Below, in pieces: positions 36,631 through 47,545 of a DNA stretch of 64,000 bases. The notes below the pieces were generated by a model, which was given only the letters and a program-made list of their open reading frames with translations, did no database searches and was not told the origin of the DNA. Positions within the stretch are counted from its first letter, which is position 1. Every line of letters begins with the position of its first letter. Source of the DNA: Candidatus Altarchaeales archaeon (lineage in GTDB: Archaea; Altiarchaeota; Altiarchaeia; IMC4; SCGC-AAA252-I15); assembly GCA_014727915.1 (NCBI GenBank), contig WJMO01000006.1, positions 329,882 to 393,881 on the forward strand, given 5' to 3'. The translations under genes were made by a program, and so were the position numbers.

Positions 36631-37059
36631 TTACCTTCGCTTTATCCCGTGTAGGCGGGCCCATGTGTGCATCACCCGCACGGCGTCTTCGATGTGGTCA
36701 ACGTCTGTTATGTGCCGGCCCCGGACCATCACAGGGTCTATGAGATTCTCCCTCAGGCATTTCTGGCTGGTTCCCACCAAAACGCTGCTGTTTATCTTGT
36801 AGTCGTCAGAGCCGCGATTTCCCTCCAGTTCAATAAGCTTGGGGGGTGGTGTCGCGTTTATTTCGGCGACTGCCACGGCAAGATTGGACATGTGATCCTT
36901 CAAAGAGCCATCGTCTTCGAAGTGATCGGCTAGTTCCACTTCGCTCGCCTGGTTCGCCGTGCCGGGGAGTGATAGGAATATGGATTCGAATTTGAGAAAG
37001 GTATCATGCATTGAGGGATGCGCGCTGACCTTGGGGGTTTTCGTTTTTTGCCCAGTCAT
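36631..37059 (-). CDS. Hypothetical protein coupled to phosphomannomutase
   Basis: A 142-residue soluble, mostly helical protein with an acidic middle (ELADHFEDDGSLKDHM, about 43-58) and a basic C terminus. No domain recognised. Its ATG overlaps the stop of the phosphomannomutase gene by 4 bp, so it is the last member of an operon with that enzyme and the RHH-nucleotidyltransferase. The segment MSNLAVAVAEINATPPPKLIELEGN is faintly reminiscent of the tandem unknown proteins at 20603-21612, but the similarity is weak. Confidence 0.65.
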   Translation of the reverse strand: MTGQKTKTPKVSAHPSMHDTFLKFESIFLSLPGTANQASEVELADHFEDDGSLKDHMSNLAVAVAEINATPPPKLIELEGNRGSDDYKINSSVLVGTSQKCLRENLIDPVMVRGRHITDVDHIEDAVRVMHTWARLHGIKRR

Positions 37060-38408
37060 ATCTTCCCTTTCAGCACCGGATATTTGTCGAAAACCTCCTG
37101 GAACATGGCCTTCATCTCATCGAGCTTCTCGGGGGTCTTTCCCTCGAACCGGATTATTATCTTGGGCCCGGTGTTGGAGGCGCGCATGAGACCCCACCCG
37201 TCTGGAGTCTGAACCCGGACTCCGTCTACTGTGATGACGTCAAGTCCCTCACGAGACATGAACTCCTTCTTAACCTCTTCCACGAGCTTGAACTTAACCT
37301 CCTCCGGGGCGTCCACCCTTATCTCCGGGGTCGAATGGTATTTGGGTATGGTGTCGACCAACTCGCTGAGCTTCATCCCTGAGTCGGACAACAACTCCAC
37401 CATCCTAGCCGACGCGTATATCCCGTCATCGTAGCCGGGGTAGTTGTCCGCGAAGAAGAAGTGCCCGCTCATCTCCCCAGCTATCAAAGCATTCTCCTCC
37501 TTTATCTTCTTCTTTATGAAGCTGTGGCCTGTCCGGTACATTATCGGCTTTCCGCCGTGGGCTTCTATGTCCTCGAAGAGGGCCTGGCTGCATTTCACCT
37601 CGAATATGATGGATGCGCCAGGGTTTTTCTCGAGTATTCCCCTGCTGAACAAGGCCAACGCCATGTCACCCCGTACTATCCCTCCTTCTTCGGTAACGAA
37701 ACCCGCGCGGTCGCTGTCACCATCGTAGGACAACCCTATGTCAGCGCCCTCGGACCTCACCCTATCTATGAGTTCTTTGAGGTTATCATCTACTGTTGGG
37801 TCGGCTGGGTGGTTGGGGAAGCTGCCGTCAGGATCCTCATAGAGGGTTGTGACCTCGCATCCCAGCTGCTCGAATAGCTTGGGGGCTACCGCACCAGCAG
37901 TCCCGTTGGCGCAGTCCAACACGAGCTTCAGCTTCCTCCCGACGTTGACACGTTCCTTAACAAAATCCAGGTATACCGGTATTACGTCAATTTTCTCATG
38001 GGTTCCTTCGCCCGTCCTGAAGTTGCGCTCCTCGACTGCGTCGCCAAGGGCCTTTATCTCCGGACCGTACAATGTCATCGTCCCGCCACGACAGAGCTTG
38101 AAACCGTTGTATTCCGGGGGGTTATGGCTTCCCGTCACCATTATGCCCCCGTCAAGCGAGAGGTGGTGTATGGTGAAGTAGAGTAGGGGCGTGGGGACCA
38201 CGCCGACGTCTATTACGTGAAGGCCTGTTGACTGCAGTCCTTTTATTAGCGCTTCCGAGAGTGCCGGGGAGCTCAACCGCACATCCCGGCCAACGGCAAC
38301 GGAACCTTCGACTGAGGAACCGAATGCCTTTCCTATGTCGACCGCGACCTCGTCTGTAAGGTCCTTCCCGTATATCCCACGGATGTCATAGGCCCGGTAA
38401 ATGCTCAT
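37056..38408 (-). CDS. Phosphomannomutase/phosphoglucomutase
   Basis: A 450-residue alpha-D-phosphohexomutase interconverting hexose 6- and 1-phosphates. The phosphoserine loop MVTGSHNPPEYNGFK (about 94-108), the Mg2+ loop DGDSDRAGFV (about 238-247), the sugar-specificity loop AGEMSGHFFF (about 317-326) and the phosphate-binding RASNTGPKIIIRFEG (about 412-426) are all present. The GEMSGH motif fits phosphomannomutase or bifunctional enzymes rather than phosphoglucosamine mutase. It follows the nucleotidyltransferase gene by 2 bp, a natural pair: hexose-6-P to hexose-1-P to NDP-hexose. Confidence 0.94.
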   Translation of the reverse strand: MSIYRAYDIRGIYGKDLTDEVAVDIGKAFGSSVEGSVAVGRDVRLSSPALSEALIKGLQSTGLHVIDVGVVPTPLLYFTIHHLSLDGGIMVTGSHNPPEYNGFKLCRGGTMTLYGPEIKALGDAVEERNFRTGEGTHEKIDVIPVYLDFVKERVNVGRKLKLVLDCANGTAGAVAPKLFEQLGCEVTTLYEDPDGSFPNHPADPTVDDNLKELIDRVRSEGADIGLSYDGDSDRAGFVTEEGGIVRGDMALALFSRGILEKNPGASIIFEVKCSQALFEDIEAHGGKPIMYRTGHSFIKKKIKEENALIAGEMSGHFFFADNYPGYDDGIYASARMVELLSDSGMKLSELVDTIPKYHSTPEIRVDAPEEVKFKLVEEVKKEFMSREGLDVITVDGVRVQTPDGWGLMRASNTGPKIIIRFEGKTPEKLDEMKAMFQEVFDKYPVLKGKI

Positions 38409-38410
38409 CT

Positions 38411-39259
38411 TCAGATAATCCCCTTCCAGTTTTTGATGGCCTTCTCATAGGCTTCAGGGGTACCCGTGTCGAACCACTGCCCGTGGAAGGGATAGCCGAA
38501 CAGCTTGCCCTCAGCAGATAGCTTGGGGAAGACATCGGTCTCCATCATGGCCTTGCCCTTCGGTATGTAATCGATAACCTCAGGCTCCAACACATAGACG
38601 CCCGCGTTTATGAGCTTGCTTTCCTCGCCCGCCTTTGGCTTCTCTATAAAACCCACGATGGTATGGCCTGTCAGCCTGGCAACCCCGAATGCTGATGTGT
38701 CATCGACCTGTGTCAACGCTATGGTCGCCGTTGCCTTCTGCTCGGTGTGGAAGCTTATCAGCTGTGAAAGATCTATGTCGCTTAGCACGTCCCCGTTGAA
38801 CATCAGGAAAGGACCGTCAAGGTGCTTCTCAGCCAGCCTAAGGGGCCCGGCAGTGCCGAGTTCCTCCTTTTCCTCGACGTACTGTATGTCCACACCCAAG
38901 TGGCTTCCATCGCCGAAGTGCTCCCTGATCTTCTCTCCCAGGTAGCCCGTGGACATTATGATCTCCCTTATGTCGTATTTCCTGCATAGTTCGATTATGT
39001 GCTGTACGAGCGGCTTGCCCTTCAGGGGTATCATGGGCTTGGGCATCTCATAGGTCAGCGGGCGCATTCGGGTGCCCTTCCCACCCGCGAGTATGACAGC
39101 CTTCCGCACCTTCCGGGACTCCAAGACCCTGGATATCAGTATCTCTATCGCGTGGCTGCGGTTCCTGACGTTGATGCCGTCGACCGTGGAGTCCAACTCC
39201 TTGAGAAGGTCCTTCCTAAGGGTTATCGTAAGCCGCTCCCTACTAGCTTCAGAGACCAT
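38411..39259 (-). CDS. Sugar nucleotidyltransferase with N-terminal ribbon-helix-helix domain
   Basis: A 282-residue fusion. Residues about 8-50 (RLTITLRKDLLKELDSTVDG then NRSHAIEILISRVL) have the beta-strand, helix, NRS turn and helix of a ribbon-helix-helix DNA-binding domain. Residues about 53-282 are a complete nucleotidyltransferase: AVILAGGKGTRMRPLTYEMPKP, the metal-binding FNGDVLSDID, and GVYVLEPEV. It probably makes GDP-mannose or a UDP/dTDP-sugar from the product of the adjacent mutase. The frame is continuous and the true start is at the RHH, with a promoter region shared with hisC 77 bp away. An enzyme that could bind DNA at its own promoter is an attractive but untested idea. Confidence 0.88.
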   Translation of the reverse strand: MVSEASRERLTITLRKDLLKELDSTVDGINVRNRSHAIEILISRVLESRKVRKAVILAGGKGTRMRPLTYEMPKPMIPLKGKPLVQHIIELCRKYDIREIIMSTGYLGEKIREHFGDGSHLGVDIQYVEEKEELGTAGPLRLAEKHLDGPFLMFNGDVLSDIDLSQLISFHTEQKATATIALTQVDDTSAFGVARLTGHTIVGFIEKPKAGEESKLINAGVYVLEPEVIDYIPKGKAMMETDVFPKLSAEGKLFGYPFHGQWFDTGTPEAYEKAIKNWKGII

Positions 39260-39336
39260 AAGTTAACACCATCATACAGGATGCTACAATATATGATAAG
39301 CTAAATATAAAAGGGTAAGGGGAAAAGATAAGGGAT

Positions 39337-40371
39337 ATGAACGTCAGAGAGCGCATGAGGCCCTGGATAGGGGAGATAAGCAACTACGTTCCCGGAGAGT
39401 ACAGGGAAGGGTATGTCAAGCTGGCCAGCAACGAGAACAACTACGGGCCAAGCCCCAAGGTCGTTGAAGCGCTCAGGCAATGGAGCGGCAGGACCCAGAT
39501 CTACCCCTACAGGGGGGAGGAGCTGAGGGAGAAGCTGGCAGAGTACGTAGGCGTGAAAAAGGAGAATATCGTGTGCGGCAACGGCAGCGACGAGCTCATC
39601 GACCTGGTGGTTAAAGCCTTCAAGGGGCCGAACGCAGGAAGCTATCCCTCATTCGCGGAATATCCAATCGTCTCACGGATAAACGGTGAAAAATACACTC
39701 CAGTAAAATTAGAGGATGACTTCGCATTCAACGCGGAGAAATTCCTTGCGGGCGCGGGGGACTGCAACCTAATGTTCCTATGCACCCCCAACAACCCGAC
39801 CGGGCTCTCAATACCGGAAGGAGAGATTATGAAGGTGGTAGAGTCAGGCAAGATTGTGGTCGTGGACGAAGCCTACTACGAGTTCAGCGGAAAGACCGTG
39901 GTAGGGCGGATAAGGGACAACCCGAACATGATAGTGTTGCGGACGATGGCAAAATCATTCGCCCTAGCCGGCCTAAGGATAGGATACGCAGTGGCGGACC
40001 CGGAGGTCATAGAAGCGTTGTTGAAGGTGAAGCCGCCATTCAACGTTAACACACTCGCCGAGGCGGCTGCCATAGCCGCGCTGGACGACATAGAGTACAT
40101 GGAAGAGACAGTCAAGAAGGTGAAGTTGGGCAAGGAGGCCATATACAAGGCGTTGAAGGGCAAGTTCAAGCCTTTGGAGAGCGACAGCAACTTCGTGTTC
40201 GCGGACGTCACCCCCATGACCTCGGAGGAGTTCGCGGAAAAGCTTCTCGAAGCCAGGATAACCGTCAGGAGATTCGGGAAACTGGAGGGATACCCTGGAG
40301 ACTACGTGCGAGTGAACGCTGGAACGGAAGAGGAGAACATGAAGTTCGCGGAAGCTCTTAGTAAGATGTGA
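39337..40371 (+). CDS. hisC: Histidinol-phosphate aminotransferase
   Basis: A 344-residue class II PLP aminotransferase acting on imidazole-acetol phosphate in histidine synthesis. Signature elements: KLASNENNYGPSPKV at the start (about 27-41), CTPNNPTGLSIP (about 149-160), DEAYYEFSG (about 176-184), and the PLP lysine in RTMAKSFALAGLRIGY (about 203-218). Length is normal. It is monocistronic, divergent from the RHH-nucleotidyltransferase, and convergent with the transketolase genes (9 bp). Other Asp/aromatic aminotransferases of this class exist, but the N-terminal motif favours HisC. Confidence 0.93.
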   Translation: MNVRERMRPWIGEISNYVPGEYREGYVKLASNENNYGPSPKVVEALRQWSGRTQIYPYRGEELREKLAEYVGVKKENIVCGNGSDELIDLVVKAFKGPNAGSYPSFAEYPIVSRINGEKYTPVKLEDDFAFNAEKFLAGAGDCNLMFLCTPNNPTGLSIPEGEIMKVVESGKIVVVDEAYYEFSGKTVVGRIRDNPNMIVLRTMAKSFALAGLRIGYAVADPEVIEALLKVKPPFNVNTLAEAAAIAALDDIEYMEETVKKVKLGKEAIYKALKGKFKPLESDSNFVFADVTPMTSEEFAEKLLEARITVRRFGKLEGYPGDYVRVNAGTEEENMKFAEALSKM

Positions 40372-40380
40372 GGAAAAAAC

Positions 40381-41331
40381 TCACTTCTTCATCTTGACAG
40401 CCTCCTCGGCTGCCTTGACTATGTCGGCTGACTTAAGGTTGTACATTTGAAGCAGGTCCTCGGCGGAGCCCGACTTTCCGAAACGGTCCCTTATCCCAAC
40501 ACGCCGCATCGGCGTCGGACAGTCCTCGGCCAATGCTTCAGCCAACGCACTGCCCAAGCCTCCGTGTATGCTATGCTCCTCAACGGAGACTACAGCCCCG
40601 GTTTCCTTAGCTGCTTTGGCGACAAATTCACGGTCAAGAGGTTTGATCGTGTGCATGTTGAGCAGACTGGCGGATATGCCCTTCTTCTTGAGTTCCGCGG
40701 CTGCTTGTATGGCCTCGGAAACCATGTAGCCGCAGGCGAAGATGGAAACGTCAGAGCCTTCGAGCAGCTTTCTGGGCTTGTCGGTGAACTTCCCATAGTC
40801 TTCGAACAAGACAGGGCTCTTCTCCCGGGTCAGCCTCATGTAGATGGGCCCCTCGTATCTCGCGGCAGCCCTTACCATGGCACGGGTCTCAACAGGGTCC
40901 GCGGGAACCTGCACCTTCATCCCAGGTATCACCCTCATCAGGGATAGGTCCTCGATTATCTGATGGCTGCTACCGTCCTTGCCAACGGTTATGCCAGCGT
41001 GGGTAAGCACGATCTTCACGTTCAAGCTGTCATAGGCTATGGTGTTCCTTATCTGCTCCCAACCCCTGCCGGCGCCGAACATGGCGAACGCGCTCGTGAA
41101 AACCGTCTTGCCCGCTAGGGCCAACCCCGCGGACAATCCCATCAGGTTCTGCTCCGCGCAGCCTACGTTGAAGAATCGGTCAGGGTACTCCCTGGCGAAC
41201 ATGATGGTCTGCGTTGAAGAGCTGAGGTCCGCGTCGACCACTACTATGTTCGGGTCTTCCCCTCCCAACTCTACCAAGGTTTCCCCATATGCCTTCCTCG
41301 TGTGCTCCTTGGTATCGCATGTTAGTTTCAT
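40381..41331 (-). CDS. Transketolase, C-terminal subunit
   Basis: A 316-residue second half of a split transketolase, carrying the pyrimidine-binding and C-terminal domains: DADLSSSTQTIMFA, NVGCAEQNLMGLSAGLALAGKTVF (with the catalytic Glu of the Pyr domain), THAGITVGKDGSSHQ and the C-terminal EEHSIHGGLGSALAEAL. It pairs with the N-terminal subunit, whose stop overlaps this start (ATGA at 41328-41331), which is why I choose 41331 over the more upstream in-frame start. The enzyme moves two-carbon units between sugar phosphates and in archaea mainly supplies pentoses and erythrose-4-P. Confidence 0.95.
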   Translation of the reverse strand: MKLTCDTKEHTRKAYGETLVELGGEDPNIVVVDADLSSSTQTIMFAREYPDRFFNVGCAEQNLMGLSAGLALAGKTVFTSAFAMFGAGRGWEQIRNTIAYDSLNVKIVLTHAGITVGKDGSSHQIIEDLSLMRVIPGMKVQVPADPVETRAMVRAAARYEGPIYMRLTREKSPVLFEDYGKFTDKPRKLLEGSDVSIFACGYMVSEAIQAAAELKKKGISASLLNMHTIKPLDREFVAKAAKETGAVVSVEEHSIHGGLGSALAEALAEDCPTPMRRVGIRDRFGKSGSAEDLLQMYNLKSADIVKAAEEAVKMKK

Positions 41332-42158
41332 ACCAGCTCCTTCAACGCCTCGCAAAGTTGTTCCCTGCTCAAAGGCTTACCGTGGAATTCAGCGACGTTC
41401 TCCATGAAAGACACTCCCTTGCCCTTGGTTGTGTTGGCTATTAACACCGTGGGAGAGTCCTTCAGAAGCTCCGCCTCATCCAAGGCGTTTATTATCTCTT
41501 CGAAGTTGTGGCCGTCCACTGTGAGTACATTCCAGCCGAAACCGCTCCACTTGTCGGCGAGAGGCTCGATGGACATTACCTCCTCGGTGCTCCCGTCGAT
41601 CTGAAGGCTGTTACGGTCCACGACGACACATAGGTTGTCAAGCCTGTAATGGGCAGCCGACATCGCAGCCTCCCAGATCTGACCCTCCTGAGACTCCCCA
41701 TCGCCCAATATGACATAGACACGATAGTCCCTCTTGTCCAATTTGCCAGCCAACGCAATCCCGCACGCTACGCTCAACCCCTGACCCAGCGAACCGGTCG
41801 AAACATCCACCCCAGGTATGCTCTTCCGGCAGGGATGGCCTTCAAGGAAGCTGTCCGCATGGCGGAACCTCTTCAGCTCCTTGACAGGAATGTAACCGGA
41901 CTCGGCAAGCACACTGTACAGCGCAGGGGCGGCATGCCCCTTGCTAAGCACGAACCGGTCCCTGTCAACCCATTCCGGGTCAGCAGAGCGGTGGCGCATT
42001 TTGTAGAAATATAGAGTGACAATGACCTCCAAGGCGGACATGGAACCTCCGGGGTGGCCTGACCCCGCCTCTGTTGTCATCTCGAGGATGTGCTTGCGTA
42101 CAGCCTTAGCCTTCGAATTCAAAAGTTTTATAGTGTCCTGGTCCACCATGCCAACCAC
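41328..42158 (-). CDS. Transketolase, N-terminal subunit
   Basis: A 276-residue first half of split transketolase with the thiamine-diphosphate-binding domain: EAGSGHPGGSMSALE (about 31-45), KGHAAPALYS, and the TPP motif GDGESQEGQIWEAAMSAAHYRLDNLCVVVDRN (G-D-G ... N, about 152-183). It heads the two-gene transketolase unit and lies 26 bp after ribulose-phosphate epimerase, so the three pentose-phosphate genes probably form one operon downstream of the nucleotide-sugar genes. Confidence 0.95.
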   Translation of the reverse strand: MVGMVDQDTIKLLNSKAKAVRKHILEMTTEAGSGHPGGSMSALEVIVTLYFYKMRHRSADPEWVDRDRFVLSKGHAAPALYSVLAESGYIPVKELKRFRHADSFLEGHPCRKSIPGVDVSTGSLGQGLSVACGIALAGKLDKRDYRVYVILGDGESQEGQIWEAAMSAAHYRLDNLCVVVDRNSLQIDGSTEEVMSIEPLADKWSGFGWNVLTVDGHNFEEIINALDEAELLKDSPTVLIANTTKGKGVSFMENVAEFHGKPLSREQLCEALKELV

Positions 42159-42184
42159 GCGTGGATAGTATTCGACCTTCTCGG

Positions 42185-42841
42185 TTAAAAATGTTTCCTC
42201 AGCTCCGACACCGCAGATGATATCCCGCGGGGGTGCTTGAATATGTATGATCCCGCCACCAGAACATCAGCCCCAGCCTCTGATATGGACTTGGCCGTGT
42301 CGGCATTTACGCCCCCATCGACTTCCAGTAGGGTTCTGAGCCCTTGGTCGTCTATAACAGACCTGGCAGACCTTATCTTATCCAAGACCTCCACCTTGAA
42401 CTTCTGCCCTCCGAAACCGGGCTCAACACCCATGAACAATAACATATCCAGGTCTCCGATCACCTCCAATACCTTCTCGAGAGGTGTTCCAGGGTTTAGT
42501 GAGACTCCTACCCTGGCGCCCGTCTCAGACACCTTCCTGACCGAGTTCTTAAGGTCCATGCATGCCTCCGCATGTATGGTGATGTAATCGGCGCCGGCAG
42601 ACCTGAAATCCCCAACGTACCTCACAGGGTCGAGTATCATAAGATGAACGTCCAATGTCAAGTCGGTGGCCGGCCTCAAAGACTTCAGAACCGGTATTCC
42701 AACGCTTATGTTTGGCACGAAACACCCGTCCATCACGTCAAAGTGTATCCACTCCACCCCCGCCTCGCCGGCTGCCGCTACCTCCTCCCCCAGGCGGGTG
42801 AAATCCGCCGACAGGATGGAGGCTGCAATGATCTTACCCAT
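42185..42841 (-). CDS. rpe: Ribulose-phosphate 3-epimerase
   Basis: A 218-residue TIM barrel interconverting ribulose-5-P and xylulose-5-P. Metal and catalytic residues are in IAASILSADFTRLG, HFDVMDGCFVPN (about 31-42), LTLDVHLMI (about 58-66), VEPGFGGQKF (about 138-147) and EVDGGVNADTA (about 169-179). The start at 42841 overlaps the upstream epimerase stop region by 8 bp; the in-frame start further upstream is unlikely. Its product pair feeds the transketolase encoded next. Confidence 0.95.
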   Translation of the reverse strand: MGKIIAASILSADFTRLGEEVAAAGEAGVEWIHFDVMDGCFVPNISVGIPVLKSLRPATDLTLDVHLMILDPVRYVGDFRSAGADYITIHAEACMDLKNSVRKVSETGARVGVSLNPGTPLEKVLEVIGDLDMLLFMGVEPGFGGQKFKVEVLDKIRSARSVIDDQGLRTLLEVDGGVNADTAKSISEAGADVLVAGSYIFKHPRGISSAVSELRKHF

Positions 42842-43757
42842 TTCGAACCCACTCCACAGTCTTTGACAAACCATCCCTCAAACCCGTCACAGGCTTCCAG
42901 CCCAGTTCCCCGTCAGCCAACGAGACGTCAAGGTATATGTGCCTGACCTCGCCCGGGACAGTGTCCGAGTGCTCGGGCTCCACGTCAACCCCCATGGCAT
43001 CGATCAGCTCCGCTGTTATGTCGTTCACCGACGTCTCGACACCTGAGCCGATGTTGTAAACCCCTGACTTCCCGCTCTCCCTCAGACCCGCGAGGTTAGC
43101 CCCTGCTATGTCGGCAACGTAGCAGAAGTCCCGCGTCTGGCCGCCGTCGCCGAATATCACGGGAGGCCTGCCCTCATGCAACAGTCCGGCGAATATGGCT
43201 ATCACGCCCGCTTCCCCCAAGGGATCCTGCCTTGGCCCATAGACGTTCCCATACCTGAGTATGTTATAGTCCAGGCCATAGTTTTCAGCGTATAGTTCGA
43301 CGTATTTTTCCCCCGCATACTTGGAAACGCCATATGGGCAGAGGGGGGCTATCGGGTGGCCTTCGCCAACGGGATTTTGCTCAGGCTCGCCGTATACTGC
43401 GCCTCCAGAAGAAGCATAGACTATCCTCTCCACCCCGTTCTTCCTGCAGGACTCCAGCAGGTTGACCGTCCCCATGATGTTTATGCCAGCATCGTATATT
43501 GGGTCCTTAAAGCTTTCCCTTACGTTTATCTGAGCGGCCAAATGCACCACGAAATCCGGCTTCTCCTCCTTGAAGACCTGATCCAGCTTGGACGAGGACA
43601 CGTCCGCCTTATGGAAATGAACTGCGGGGTTTAGGTTCTCGCGTTTTCCTGTTGAGAGATCATCCACTACTGCAACATCGTATCCTTCCTCCAAGAGCAG
43701 GTCCACAGTGTTGCTGCCTATGAACCCAGCACCCCCGGTGACGAGGACCTTACTCAT
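42834..43757 (-). CDS. NAD-dependent sugar-nucleotide epimerase, GalE-like
   Basis: A 307-residue extended short-chain dehydrogenase: NAD-binding GGAGFIGSN (about 7-15), the catalytic YGVSKYAGE (Y-x3-K, about 142-150), and a serine-rich [11 protein letters not shown] before it. It resembles UDP-glucose 4-epimerases and related archaeal enzymes; the exact epimerisation (4-epimerase or other) cannot be settled. It overlaps the UXS-like gene by 4 bp and rpe by 8 bp, in an operon with galU. Confidence 0.88.
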
Positions 43758-44689
43758 GAAACGACCTCTTTGAAGTAGTCGATGGTCTTCGAAAGCCCCT
43801 CCCTCAAATGGACCTTAGGCTTCCAGCCCAGTACCTCCCCCGCAAGGGCGATGTCAGGGCACCTTACCTTGGGGTCGTCCTCGGGCAGGGGCTCGAATCC
43901 TATCTTCGACTTTGAGCCGGTCAATTCTATTATGATCTCAGCCAGCTCCAGCATGTTAAACTCTCCCGGGTTACCGACGTTCACCGGCTCATGGTAGTCG
44001 GATTCCATCAGCTTCAATATGCCCTCTACCTGGTCCGTTATGTAGCAGAAGCTCCTGGTCTGCTTACCATCGCCGAAAACTGACAGGTCCTCTCCCTTGA
44101 GGGCCTGGGATATGAAGGTGGGTACGACACGCCCATCGTCTATGCGCATCCTGGGACCGTAAGTGTTGAATATGCGGACTATCCTCGTGTCTATGGCATG
44201 GGTTCGATGGTATGCCATGACAAGGGCCTCGCTGAACCTCTTAGCCTCGTCATACACCGACCTGGGACCTATGGGGTTCACGTTACCCCAGTAGGACTCC
44301 GGCTGCGGGTGGACCAGCGGGTCACCATAAACTTCGGACGTCGAAGCCTGGAGGTACCGGGAGCCCTTCGCCTTGGCCACGCCCAAAGTGTTCAACGTGC
44401 CAAGCGAATCAACCTTCATCGTCTGTATCGGGAGCTTCTGGTAGTCTATGGGGCTGGCGGGGCACGCAAAATGAAGTATGTAATCTAGGTCGCCTTCGAC
44501 CTCTATGTATTTGCTAACGTCATGCTCTATGAACTCGAAGTCCTTCTCCCCGAGAAGATGGTCTATGTTGCGCATGGAACCAGTAAGCAGATTGTCCATG
44601 CATATGACATGCCATCCCCCGCCCAGAAGCCTGTCGCATAGGTGCGAGCCTATGAAACCCGCGCCGCCCGTGACCAACACCCTCTTCAT
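43754..44689 (-). CDS. UDP-glucuronate decarboxylase (UDP-xylose synthase-like)
   Basis: A 311-residue SDR with [30 protein letters not shown] (a hallmark of UXS, about 74-88), the catalytic [11 protein letters not shown] (about 147-157), [10 protein letters not shown] and [19 protein letters not shown] converts UDP-glucuronate to UDP-xylose with NAD+. Its substrate can be supplied by galU (next gene upstream) and the UDP-glucose dehydrogenase at 46256, so a complete glucose-1-P to UDP-xylose route is present. It overlaps both neighbours by 4 bp. Confidence 0.93.
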
Positions 44690-45564
44690 CTGTACTTTGC
44701 CTCCACTTCATCCGCGTTGAAGTTTGAAAAGTATTCCCTCAGTCGGGGACCGACTTCCTCGTGCAGGAGACCGTATTCGAGGGAAGCCTTCAAGTATTCG
44801 AACTTGTTGCCAAGGTCATGGCGGACACCCTCGAACTCCCAACCATACATCTCCTCCTTCTTGCTCAATCTCATGAGGCCGTCCGTCAGCTGTATCTCAC
44901 CGCCACGTCCCTTCTTGGTCTTCTTAAGCTCTTCGAATATCCCGGGGGTCAGGAGGTACCTCCCTATTATCCCCAGGTTGGAAGGAGAATCCTCCGGCTT
45001 AGGCTTCTCCACCAGATGGGTTATCCTATGAAGGCCAGGACCAACCTCGGTGCCGTCGATTATTCCATAGCTGGATATCATGTGTTCCGGGACCTTCTCC
45101 ACCGCGATTATCGACGCCTTATGCTTGTAGTATAGCTCGAAAAGCTGCTTGGTGCAGGGCTTCTTGGAGAAGACTATGTCATCGCCCAACAGCACCGCGA
45201 ATGGCTCGTCCCCCACGTGCTTCTCGGCTCTCAGTATCGCATGCCCCAGGCCCAACGCCTCCTTCTGCCTTATGAAGTGTATGTCCACCATGCTGGCTAT
45301 GTCAGCGACCATCTCCTTCAGGTCTTCCTTCCCCTTCTTGTCCAACACCGCCTCCAACTCCACGCTGTGGTCGAAGTGGTCCTCGATCACACGCTTGCCC
45401 CTTCCGGTTATTATGATTATGTCGTCTATCCCCGAGTCCACGCACTCCTCAACAACGAACTGTATGCTGGGCTTGTCCACGAGGGGCAGCATCTCCTTGG
45501 GCTGGCTCTTAGTCGCAGGGAGGAAGCGGGTGCCCAAGCCAGCGGCGGGTATCACAGCCTTCAT
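44686..45564 (-). CDS. galU: UTP-glucose-1-phosphate uridylyltransferase
   Basis: A 292-residue bacterial/archaeal-type Gal[21 protein letters not shown] (UTP-binding), [28 protein letters not shown] and the C-terminal [14 protein letters not shown]. It makes UDP-glucose. I place the start at the ATG 45564, four codons after a GTG at 45576, because a TATA element (TTATTTAAAAG, about 45590-45600) sits 25-30 bp upstream, giving a leaderless message. It is the first gene of the operon galU, UXS, epimerase, rpe, transketolase. Confidence 0.94.
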
Positions 45565-45690
45565 AGTGGATAACACATATGGGACCTTCCTTTTAAATAA
45601 TATCCAAGGGCCGAGCCTGGTTGGGATAATCCAAATAGTATCCCCAAGGTAAGTGAAATGTTTTTTAGCCTTCCAGGACAGATATTATTA

Positions 45691-46254
45691 ATGCACAGGG
45701 TTTATGCGGTTGACTTTGACGGAACGCTCTGCGATACGTCTTCTCTCAAACAGGAATATCTGCTCAACAACCACGGGGTGATCGTCTGCCCATGCAACAC
45801 CAACAGAACATACCTTACCAGGGAGAAAGGCCATATCTCTGAGGAGGATTATGATGCCATGGTCGAGTTCGTTGGGAGCAGGGAGGCCACATTATCAGCC
45901 AAACCGGTGCCAGGAGCGGTCGAAGCCGTGAAGAGAATGTCCGAATCAGGGAGGGTTTTCATCCTGACAGCCAGGAGGGGAAGCCAGTTGGACTCTGCGA
46001 GGGAGTGGAGTAGAAAAAACGGGCTGGAAGATTTCATAGAGGGATACATCTCATCCCGCCATTTCACGGAAGACAAGATGCGCATATGCAGCAGCCTCAA
46101 CATCAGATACCTGATAGACGACGACCCAGGGAATCTGGACCAACGCAGCCAGGAGGTGGAGGGCATAATCTTCAGGAACGGGTGCGCGCTTGAGGATAGC
46201 ATGAGCGCGGCCTGCGCTGTCGACTGGCAGCAGGCACTGGCCTACATGCAGTAG
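45691..46254 (+). CDS. HAD-superfamily phosphatase, 5'-nucleotidase-like
   Basis: A 187-residue HAD hydrolase. Motif I VDFDGTLCD (about 6-14) carries the nucleophilic Asp; motif II ILTARR (Thr, about 91-96) and a motif IV-like LIDDDPGNLD (about 141-150) are seen, with a helical cap between. It resembles polynucleotide kinase/5'-nucleotidase-type small HADs; the substrate is unknown. I use ATG 45691 (MHRVYAVDFDG) since the motif then has the normal distance from the N terminus. It is divergent from galU and convergent with ugd (1 bp gap). Confidence 0.8.
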   Translation: MHRVYAVDFDGTLCDTSSLKQEYLLNNHGVIVCPCNTNRTYLTREKGHISEEDYDAMVEFVGSREATLSAKPVPGAVEAVKRMSESGRVFILTARRGSQLDSAREWSRKNGLEDFIEGYISSRHFTEDKMRICSSLNIRYLIDDDPGNLDQRSQEVEGIIFRNGCALEDSMSAACAVDWQQALAYMQ

Positions 46255-46255
46255 C

Positions 46256-47545
46256 CTACCAGCAGAGACCCTCGTACTCCACGTCATCAGCCAGGAGGTC
46301 AACGTTCAATATGTGCCTCGAGTCGACCACCCGCTTCTTCTTCATGGGCGAGAAGTCGACTGTCTTGAATTCAGGCCACTCGGTAACTATGACGGCGAGC
46401 TCGCTGTCCTTCAACGCGTCCTTGACCGTAGACGCATATTTGATGCTGTCCTTGAAATGGTCCTTAGCGTTATCGATGGCCTCGGGGTCGTATGCGGTAA
46501 TCTCGGCACCTTCCTCAATCAGTCCCCTGACTATGGGTACGGACGGGCTCTCCCGCATGTCGTCCGTGCCGGCCTTGAACGCCAAGCCCAAGACGGTCAC
46601 CTTGGCGCCCTTCAGTTCATACTTGGACCTGACTAGGTCCAACAGTACCTGCGGCTGCCTGGCGTTGACCTCCAGCACCGCATTCAACAGTATAGGATCA
46701 ACATCCACTTCCTGGGCCTTATGAACCATTGCCTTGACGTCCTTCGGGAAGCAGCTACCCCCGAATCCAGGGCCGGCGTTCAGGAAAGAGGGGGATATTC
46801 GATGGTCCAATCCTACGCCCTTAGCGACATCGTAGACGTTGACATTAAGCCTCTTGCACACGTTTCCGATCTCATTGATGAAGCTTATCTTGGTTGCGAG
46901 CAGGCTGTTGCTCGTGTACTTAATCATCTCCGCGGTCTTCAGGTTAACGCGGAGCACCGGGGCTGTGAAGTCGTAGTAGAGCTTCTCTATGAGGTCGCCG
47001 CCCCTCTCGTCCAGGCTGCCTATGACGATGCGATCGGGGTTCAGGAAGTCGTCCACTGCAACGCCCTCTCGTAGGAACTCCGGGTTCATGACGACGCCGA
47101 AGTCCCTTCCAGCCTTCTTCCCAGACTCCTTCTCCAAGGCGGGTATCACATGCTCTTCTGTGGAGCCGGGTATGATGGTGCTCTTCACCACCACGACATG
47201 GTATCCCTTCTTCTTTTTGAGTATCTTACCCACTTCCCTGCTGACCTCTTTCACATACTTCAGGTTGATGCTGCCATCGTCGTCGGATGGGGTGCCCACG
47301 CATATGAAGGTTACGTCGGTCTTCAGCACGCTGGCCTCCAGGTTCAACGAAGCCTTCAGATTTTCAGGGACTACATGGTCGAGTATCTCCTGAAGGCCCT
47401 TCTCGAATATGGGCGGCTTACGGGCGTTTATCATGTCCACCTTGCGCTTGTCGATGTCTACGCATATAACGTCATGGTCCTTCTCGGCGAAGCCCGCCGC
47501 CGTTATCAAACCAACATAGCCCGATCCAACCACTGAAATCTTCAT
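46256..47545 (-). CDS. UDP-glucose/GDP-mannose 6-dehydrogenase
   Basis: A 429-residue NAD-dependent enzyme making UDP-glucuronate (or GDP-mannuronate). The Rossmann motif GSGYVGLITAAGFAEKGHD-like opens the protein, followed by CVGTPSDDDGS (about 77-87), the oxyanion Lys/Asn in KYTSNSLLATKISFINEI (about 206-223) and the catalytic Cys in GPGFGGSCFPKD (about 252-263). Length is normal. Given galU and a UXS homologue on the same strand just downstream, UDP-glucose is the likelier substrate. It follows the unknown secreted-protein gene by 23 bp. Confidence 0.93.
   Translation of the reverse strand: MKISVVGSGYVGLITAAGFAEKDHDVICVDIDKRKVDMINARKPPIFEKGLQEILDHVVPENLKASLNLEASVLKTDVTFICVGTPSDDDGSINLKYVKEVSREVGKILKKKKGYHVVVVKSTIIPGSTEEHVIPALEKESGKKAGRDFGVVMNPEFLREGVAVDDFLNPDRIVIGSLDERGGDLIEKLYYDFTAPVLRVNLKTAEMIKYTSNSLLATKISFINEIGNVCKRLNVNVYDVAKGVGLDHRISPSFLNAGPGFGGSCFPKDVKAMVHKAQEVDVDPILLNAVLEVNARQPQVLLDLVRSKYELKGAKVTVLGLAFKAGTDDMRESPSVPIVRGLIEEGAEITAYDPEAIDNAKDHFKDSIKYASTVKDALKDSELAVIVTEWPEFKTVDFSPMKKKRVVDSRHILNVDLLADDVEYEGLCW

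Follow-up and report, generated by a model that had tools for sequence, protein, structure and literature searches.

The window, the whole 64,000-nucleotide stretch of archaeal DNA that was analysed, encodes a protein in which a ribbon-helix-helix (RHH) domain precedes a sugar nucleotidyltransferase. This arrangement raises the question whether an enzyme of nucleotide-sugar synthesis could also be a DNA-binding switch for its own operon, as a preliminary description of the locus had proposed.

The fused gene and its product

The gene, with its open reading frame as described before, and the parts of its product are as follows:

38411..39259, reverse strand: RHH-sugar nucleotidyltransferase fusion gene, 282 aa, ATG start
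39104..39259, reverse strand: RHH domain, residues 1-52, with the recognition strand R9-x-T11-x-T13 and the turn R32-N-R-S-H36
38414..39103, reverse strand: sugar-1-phosphate nucleotidyltransferase domain, residues 53-282 (PF00483, E 3.8e-53)
39059..39085, reverse strand: GGKGTRMRP signature with Arg64, codons 59-67, retained by 22 of 22 members of the window's order

The joining of an RHH domain to a complete NTP-transferase domain, as claimed in the preliminary description, was confirmed by Pfam, NikR models, a family profile and an AlphaFold2 model. The Pfam family RHH_1 gives a weak match to residues 9-44, with 13.2 bits for the whole protein and 17.5 bits (E 0.004) for residues 1-53, both below the cut-off of 20.5, and the N-terminus alone matches three NikR models over residues 8-50 (best E 2.8e-5). 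A 55-sequence profile of the N-terminal domain, when compared with solved structures, matches E. coli NikR (1q5v, E 1.4e-6) and CopG (E 0.0091), NikR being the closest RHH family by profile, and RHH_1 matches 51 of the 55 family members at E <= 0.05. In the AlphaFold2 model of the whole protein (mean pLDDT 91.9, pTM 0.87; 65-83 in blocks of the RHH domain), helices at residues 16-25 and 34-48 follow an extended stretch, which is the strand-helix-helix fold. The best structural matches of the RHH domain alone are SvtR (Z 5.2 over 46 residues, 2.4 A) and ParD2 (Z 4.9), with modest Z-scores, and Foldseek returned no significant E-value for this domain alone.

The C-terminal domain is a clear member of the NTP_transferase family PF00483 (residues 53-276; 181 bits against a cut-off of 21.2). 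Its closest structures are tlr0611 (8x7s, Z 31.3), GMPPB (7d72/7d74, Z 30.7-30.8) and MurU (4y7v, Z about 30), and none of the NCBIfam models among the matches listed for the protein reaches its own cut-off.

A start-codon artefact was considered, in which an in-frame GTG at residue 51 would give an enzyme without RHH domain. This candidate was rejected, as an 83%-identical relative has no start codon at that position, and it is also ruled out by purifying selection on the RHH domain. Compared with the same relative, pN/pS is 0.18 for the RHH domain and 0.14 for the nucleotidyltransferase domain, and the RHH domain is therefore taken to be translated. No account of an RHH-nucleotidyltransferase fusion was found in the literature searched, which is weak evidence since few subscription papers and preprints were covered; PMC6393860, in its accessible part, concerns other families.

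Gene neighbourhood

Two genes flank the fused gene directly:

37056..38408, reverse strand: phosphoglucomutase/phosphomannomutase gene, 2 nt downstream of the fused gene, with four PGM_PMM domains
39337..40371, forward strand: hisC-type aminotransferase gene (named by sequence reading, no profile), divergent from the fused gene and sharing a 77-bp intergenic region with it

The fused gene and the phosphohexomutase gene probably form one operon. The nucleotide-sugar operon of the preliminary description is in its immediate form this pair of genes, and the larger cluster (40381-47545, reverse strand) lies beyond the divergent hisC gene. This cluster contains transketolase halves, a ribulose-phosphate epimerase-like gene, two NDP-sugar epimerase/dehydratase-like genes, a second, GalU-like NTP_transferase gene (44686-45576) and a UDP-glucose dehydrogenase-like gene, with names read from sequence except for one transketolase half and the NTP_transferase, which were assigned by profile.

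Locus L038, that of the 83%-identical relative, has the gene order of the window, i.e. epimerase, pentulose-phosphate epimerase, transketolase halves, hisC-like gene, fused gene and mutase. A PGM/PMM gene directly 3' of the fused gene was found for 6 of the 58 same-strand neighbours scanned (L038-L043). The 58 downstream neighbours further include PGK (6), NTP_transferase (5), GDP_Man_Dehyd (3), TrmB (3) and GlpX (2), and another 53 genes in second-downstream or upstream position, selected by hand from the neighbour lists, include GHMP kinases (6), GAPDH (3) and UDP-glucose dehydrogenases (3). Together these genes point to sugar phosphates and nucleotide sugars as a common theme. Two further observations concern the neighbourhoods. 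In many Patescibacteria (among the downstream neighbours of L038-L117) the fused gene is followed by members of a 12-protein family, each about 300-350 aa long, some of which may correspond to DUF6206 matches. Two Diapherotrites loci (L049 and L052) have a second fused gene with a degenerate nucleotidyltransferase, which adjoins a UDP-glucose dehydrogenase-like gene and has its own upstream box.

Distribution and conservation of the fusion

The fusion proved to be conserved beyond the window, with a match that includes the RHH domain in 22 of the 24 genomes of its order (G000-G023); G003 has an enzyme without RHH domain and G011 a distant enzyme only. In a search of 394 genomes, at least 62 matches in at least 60 genomes start within the first 10 profile positions. 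When 84,980 species genomes were scanned with one pattern, 181 of the 194 pattern matches were found to encode relatives. The best 80 of these 181, which were kept, comprise 53 bacterial and 18 archaeal members and 9 without automatic assignment, and represent Altiarchaeota, Aenigmatarchaeota, Diapherotrites, Nanoarchaeota, Micrarchaeota and many Patescibacteria. Of 286 genomes sampled from the phylum of one Uhrbacteria genome, 38 contained a strong match, and the RHH domain was included in 35 of 39 among the matches listed. Judged by this distribution, the fusion is an old and conserved family that recurs in DPANN archaea and Patescibacteria. A tree built quickly from 130 rows of the enzyme domain places the bacterial members in a single clade (SH-aLRT 85) and needs three changes to account for the fused and RHH-less forms, for which one old fusion with later losses would be the simplest reading.

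The strand residues R9, T11 and T13 are all kept in the window protein. They are found in 53, 52 and 53, respectively, of the 54 bacterial members (the group that remained after hand-listed archaeal loci were removed), in 30, 25 (with Ser in six more) and 26 of 31 other archaeal members, and in only 8, 13 and 10 of the 22 members of the window's order, 15 of which have changed strand residues in a domain that is itself kept. The scan pattern was [IV]R[NS]RSHAIE, so that the invariance of residues 31-39 in the scanned loci is partly due to the way the loci were selected; residues 9, 11 and 13 lie outside it.

Loss of the signature arginine

The GxGTR...PK signature, the aspartate of the NGD motif and the lysine of the EKP motif have catalytic roles in nucleotidyltransferases of this type, and the signature Arg is needed for catalysis. 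The window protein has all of these, as do 22 of 22 members of its order, and the catalytic motifs of the window protein are in this respect intact. Arg64 is also present in 24 of 25 RHH-less homologues (the remaining one has a gap) and in 17 of 31 other archaeal members. It is lost in the other 14 archaeal members and in 53 of the 54 bacterial members, where it is mostly replaced by Lys (29) or Asn (15); the same 54 proteins retain K74 in 54, D157 in 54 and R66 in 52 cases. The glycine-rich loop is lost or scrambled in the archaeal members L026, L031, L032, L033 and L034. As a side observation, L026 and L031 have a second nucleotidyltransferase gene with a largely kept loop directly downstream of the fused gene, and L033 has one with the loop nearby on the opposite strand.

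Because the signature Arg is gone while the RHH domain is kept, in most Patescibacteria and in about half of the other archaea examined the protein resembles a sensor more than an enzyme. The members from Patescibacteria, with the DNA-reading strand nearly fixed, are apparent pseudoenzyme regulators. A precedent for pseudoenzymes in the nucleotidyltransferase fold is provided by the large subunits of potato ADP-glucose pyrophosphorylase, which, according to the accessible part of PMC2529307, are thought to be non-catalytic partly through an active-site Lys-to-Thr change.

A tandem operator-like motif upstream of the fused genes

A repeated TATGATA came to light when the 150-bp upstream regions of the fused genes were read in 102 non-redundant loci; upstream sequences of less than 80-100 bp had been set aside beforehand. 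The tandem form TATGA-N5-TATGA occurs exactly in 29 of the 102 regions, compared to 0.25 expected by dinucleotide shuffles (maximum 2), and with at most one mismatch in 46, compared to about 2.6. Among 26 spacings only the 10-bp period stands out, with 46 regions against 1-13 for the others. A positional model built from 41 sites reads roughly GTATGATAA-GTATGA-A, and in bacterial members (e.g. L067 and L081) the site takes the form of a tandem TATGATATAGTATGAT. The loci, 898,023 bases in all, contain 50 exact sites. The 150 bp that precede the fused gene hold 37 of them and a further 7 fall within 600 bp; for most exact sites the distance to the start codon is 16 to 50 bp. Allowing one mismatch, the tandem motif is present in 28 of 54 bacterial loci, 15 of 26 other archaeal loci and 3 of 22 loci of the window's order, none of these three being exact.

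Chance or base composition as the source of the motif was rejected on the basis of comparisons with the shuffles, the other spacings and all 30 permutations of TATGA, and with three sets of control regions, namely those 3' of the stop codon, those of other genes and those of RHH-less homologues. The exact tandem site is found in 1 of 109 regions of 150 bp after the stop codon and before 2 of 744 other genes of the same loci (13 of 744 at up to one mismatch), and the upstream regions of RHH-less homologues contain it in 0 of 22 cases at up to one mismatch. After TATGA itself the highest count among the permutations is that of ATGAT (13), which overlaps the motif in a different register. The reversed-pattern control is raised near the fused gene (12 of its 15 hits in the loci) because AGTAT overlaps the tandem motif.

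This putative operator, which is new here, resembles the binding site of the nearest RHH relative. In the available parts of the sources, E. coli NikR is described as binding GTATGA-N16-TCATAC (PMC7055735) and the enterobacterial NikR consensus is given as GTATGAT-N13/14-ATCATAC (PMC545781). This identity of the half-site GTATGA speaks more strongly than any other single finding for the fused protein itself as the reader of the motif. With the operator-like boxes as a basis, the fused protein itself would bind them, presumably as a dimer that contacts operator DNA through the RHH strand.

Boxes in the window and their association with the strand

The 77 bp between hisC and the fused gene, a size correctly given in the preliminary description, contain a candidate operator of two boxes:

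39270..39276, reverse strand: operator-like box TATGATG, centre at -14 from the start codon
39292..39298, reverse strand: operator-like box TATCATA, an exact TAT[CG]ATA, centre at -36 and 22 bp from the first box

The canonical 10-bp pair is absent from the upstream region of the window gene, where the centres of the two boxes lie 22 bp from each other and the order is TCATA...TATGA; for the window, single TAT[CG]ATA boxes were counted, with one mismatch allowed. The 64 kb contain three box pairs with centres 10, 20, 21 or 22 bp apart, one of which is that of the fused gene. In shuffles of the 77 bp, two boxes at any spacing occur in 9.5%, and a pair 20-22 bp apart, a spacing picked after looking at the data, in 0.7%. 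The seven loci of the window family contain 13 boxes, compared to 3.6 expected (0 of 1000 shuffles as high), and the 15 changed-strand loci of the order contain 6, compared to 7.1 expected; L127, with Q at residue 9, was counted in both sets. Within the order a box is present in 7 of 7 loci with the strand kept and in 5 of 15 with the strand changed (Fisher p 0.005 without the tree), an association that has only three independent contrasts on supported branches and could be explained by relatedness. Since the strand is changed and boxes are not above chance in 15 of the 22 members, many close relatives probably no longer have the switch, in contrast to the window protein. In the genome of the window the tandem motif is not enriched (110 sites, compared to 119 for the reversed control) and no wider regulon is therefore visible there; its five exact sites are located inside or at the ends of genes.

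Relation to known systems

Several known proteins combine an enzyme and a DNA-binding domain in one chain and sense their own pathway, such as NadR and the archaeal riboflavin kinase/regulator RbkR, but these have winged-helix or HTH domains and unrelated enzymes. The nucleotidyltransferase domain resembles GMPPB/GMPPA, MurU and other PF00483 enzymes by both sequence and structure, and we know of no DNA-binding domain in any of these sugar nucleotidyltransferases. GMPPA is described, in the part of PMC11228364 considered, as a non-catalytic GDP-mannose-binding paralogue that regulates GMPPB, and as such it offers a precedent for nucleotide-sugar sensing by a non-catalytic nucleotidyltransferase. 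By this description GMPPA acts on an enzyme, whereas the fusion family is proposed to act on DNA.

PutA of enterobacteria, a proline dehydrogenase/P5C dehydrogenase, likewise carries an N-terminal RHH domain on a metabolic enzyme, and is reported to bind operators next to its own gene and to repress (PMC5879082, accessible part). In these terms it provides a functional precedent for an N-terminal-RHH enzyme that represses at its own gene. It differs from the window protein in enzyme, fold, pathway and taxa, the shared part considered being the RHH domain, and a proline dehydrogenase domain is not among the Pfam families found in the window protein. NikR, close as it is in RHH profile and half-site, carries a nickel-binding domain (PMC7055735, as far as available), whereas residues 53-282 of the window protein form the nucleotidyltransferase; the NikR models match residues 8-50 only, and its C-terminal nickel-binding domain was not found. 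Moreover, the described NikR operator is inverted, with N16 (or N13/14), in contrast to the tandem motif with its 10-bp period, and neither the family motif nor the box pair of the window has the inverted GTATGA-N16-TCATAC form. On our best reading, by analogy, the fusion family would be like PutA in logic and unlike any described family found in the literature searched.

Proposed mechanism and alternatives

We propose, with a probability of roughly 0.68, that the window protein is an autoregulatory enzyme that couples nucleotide-sugar status to transcription; from the sequence comparisons we infer binding, direction, the identity of the ligand and ligand coupling. The self-regulating switch of the preliminary description is to this extent partly supported, i.e. 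by the RHH profile, the conservation of the fusion and the candidate operator. The C-terminal domain would convert a hexose-1-phosphate and an NTP to a nucleotide sugar, alongside the phosphohexomutase encoded by the adjacent gene. The N-terminal RHH domains would pair and, with their R-x-T-x-T strands placed in the major groove, contact the TAT[CG]ATA boxes of the 77-bp promoter region, thereby controlling transcription of the enzyme/mutase operon. Given the location of the boxes at about -15 to -50, repression is the most likely direction. Substrate or product bound in the nucleotidyltransferase site would probably alter DNA binding, so that the status of the pathway could set its own expression. 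Members from DPANN archaea and Patescibacteria that lack the signature Arg may then act as pure ligand-sensing regulators.

DNA binding and catalysis might instead be uncoupled, with an enzyme that represses its own gene in proportion to its concentration. Plain autorepression of this kind would equally conserve strand and boxes, but the nucleotidyltransferase domain has been kept despite loss of the Arg (53 of 54 bacterial and 14 of 31 other archaeal members), which is hard to explain unless the domain still binds something useful to a regulator, and we consider uncoupling unlikely. The RHH domain could also serve dimerisation only, leaving a plain nucleotidyltransferase that exerts no control over transcription. 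The changed R9/T11/T13 in 15 of the 22 members of the order, in a domain that is kept next to catalytic residues intact in 22 of 22, would fit this explanation; however, the near-fixation of these residues in bacteria, at positions outside the search pattern, their retention in the window protein, and an upstream motif that matches the half-site of NikR, the nearest characterised RHH relative, make it rather improbable. Very improbable is a role of the boxes as promoter elements or as sites of another regulator: TATGAT resembles the bacterial -10 hexamer, the boxes occupy the -10 position in bacterial loci and TTGACA precedes them in glutamate dehydrogenase promoters, but archaea do not use -10 hexamers, the same 10-bp pair is found in 15 of 26 archaea outside the window's order, and the pair occurs before just 13 of 744 other genes and 0 of 22 RHH-less homologues, exact pairs being nearly confined to the fused gene.

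The autoregulatory reading of the window protein can be extended to the family. The chances are about even that the RHH-nucleotidyltransferases, ranging from active enzyme to pseudoenzyme, form a new family of sugar-sensing transcription factors common to Patescibacteria and DPANN/Altiarchaeal archaea, which would use essentially one operator (tandem GTATGATA, 10-bp period) across bacteria and archaea, and would control, besides their own gene, glycolysis/gluconeogenesis (PGK, GAPDH, fructose-1,6-bisphosphatase) or glutamate dehydrogenase in some lineages. To our knowledge, very little work has addressed how Patescibacteria and DPANN archaea regulate their metabolic genes, and the fusion family would offer a concrete regulator, DNA site and ligand class for it. 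If the proposal is true, a nucleotide-sugar enzyme would join the few enzymes that control their own genes, the passage from enzyme to pseudoenzyme regulator could be followed step by step with both end states alive, and one operator would, as a rare case, be read by related regulators in bacteria and archaea.

Possible further targets

Exact TATGANNNNGTATGA sites number 41 in 20 genomes, 25 of them at or shortly upstream of the fused gene and 16 elsewhere. As the reversed control likewise gave 16 sites, extra targets are at chance level overall, and among these outlying sites (regions of 14 of the 16 viewed or adjoining) no clear promoter position was found beyond single cases. Three Uhrbacteria genomes have a site before orthologous glutamate dehydrogenase genes (proteins 69-82% identical), where TATGAYATAGTATGA follows a conserved TTGACA (L148, L150 and L152, from G395, G396 and G398, respectively), and glutamate dehydrogenase is a possible second target in Uhrbacteria. 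One bacterial genome has a tandem site before a GH13 gene. In L038 an exact reversed tandem site is located before the transketolase gene (upstream of 1579); the orthologue in the window, at 42158, lacks a site. An Aenigmatarchaeal genome (L153, 1869-1922) has two tandem sites before a PF01950 fructose-1,6-bisphosphatase gene which, like the glutamate dehydrogenase and GH13 cases, is put forward as a suggestion only of a regulon target.
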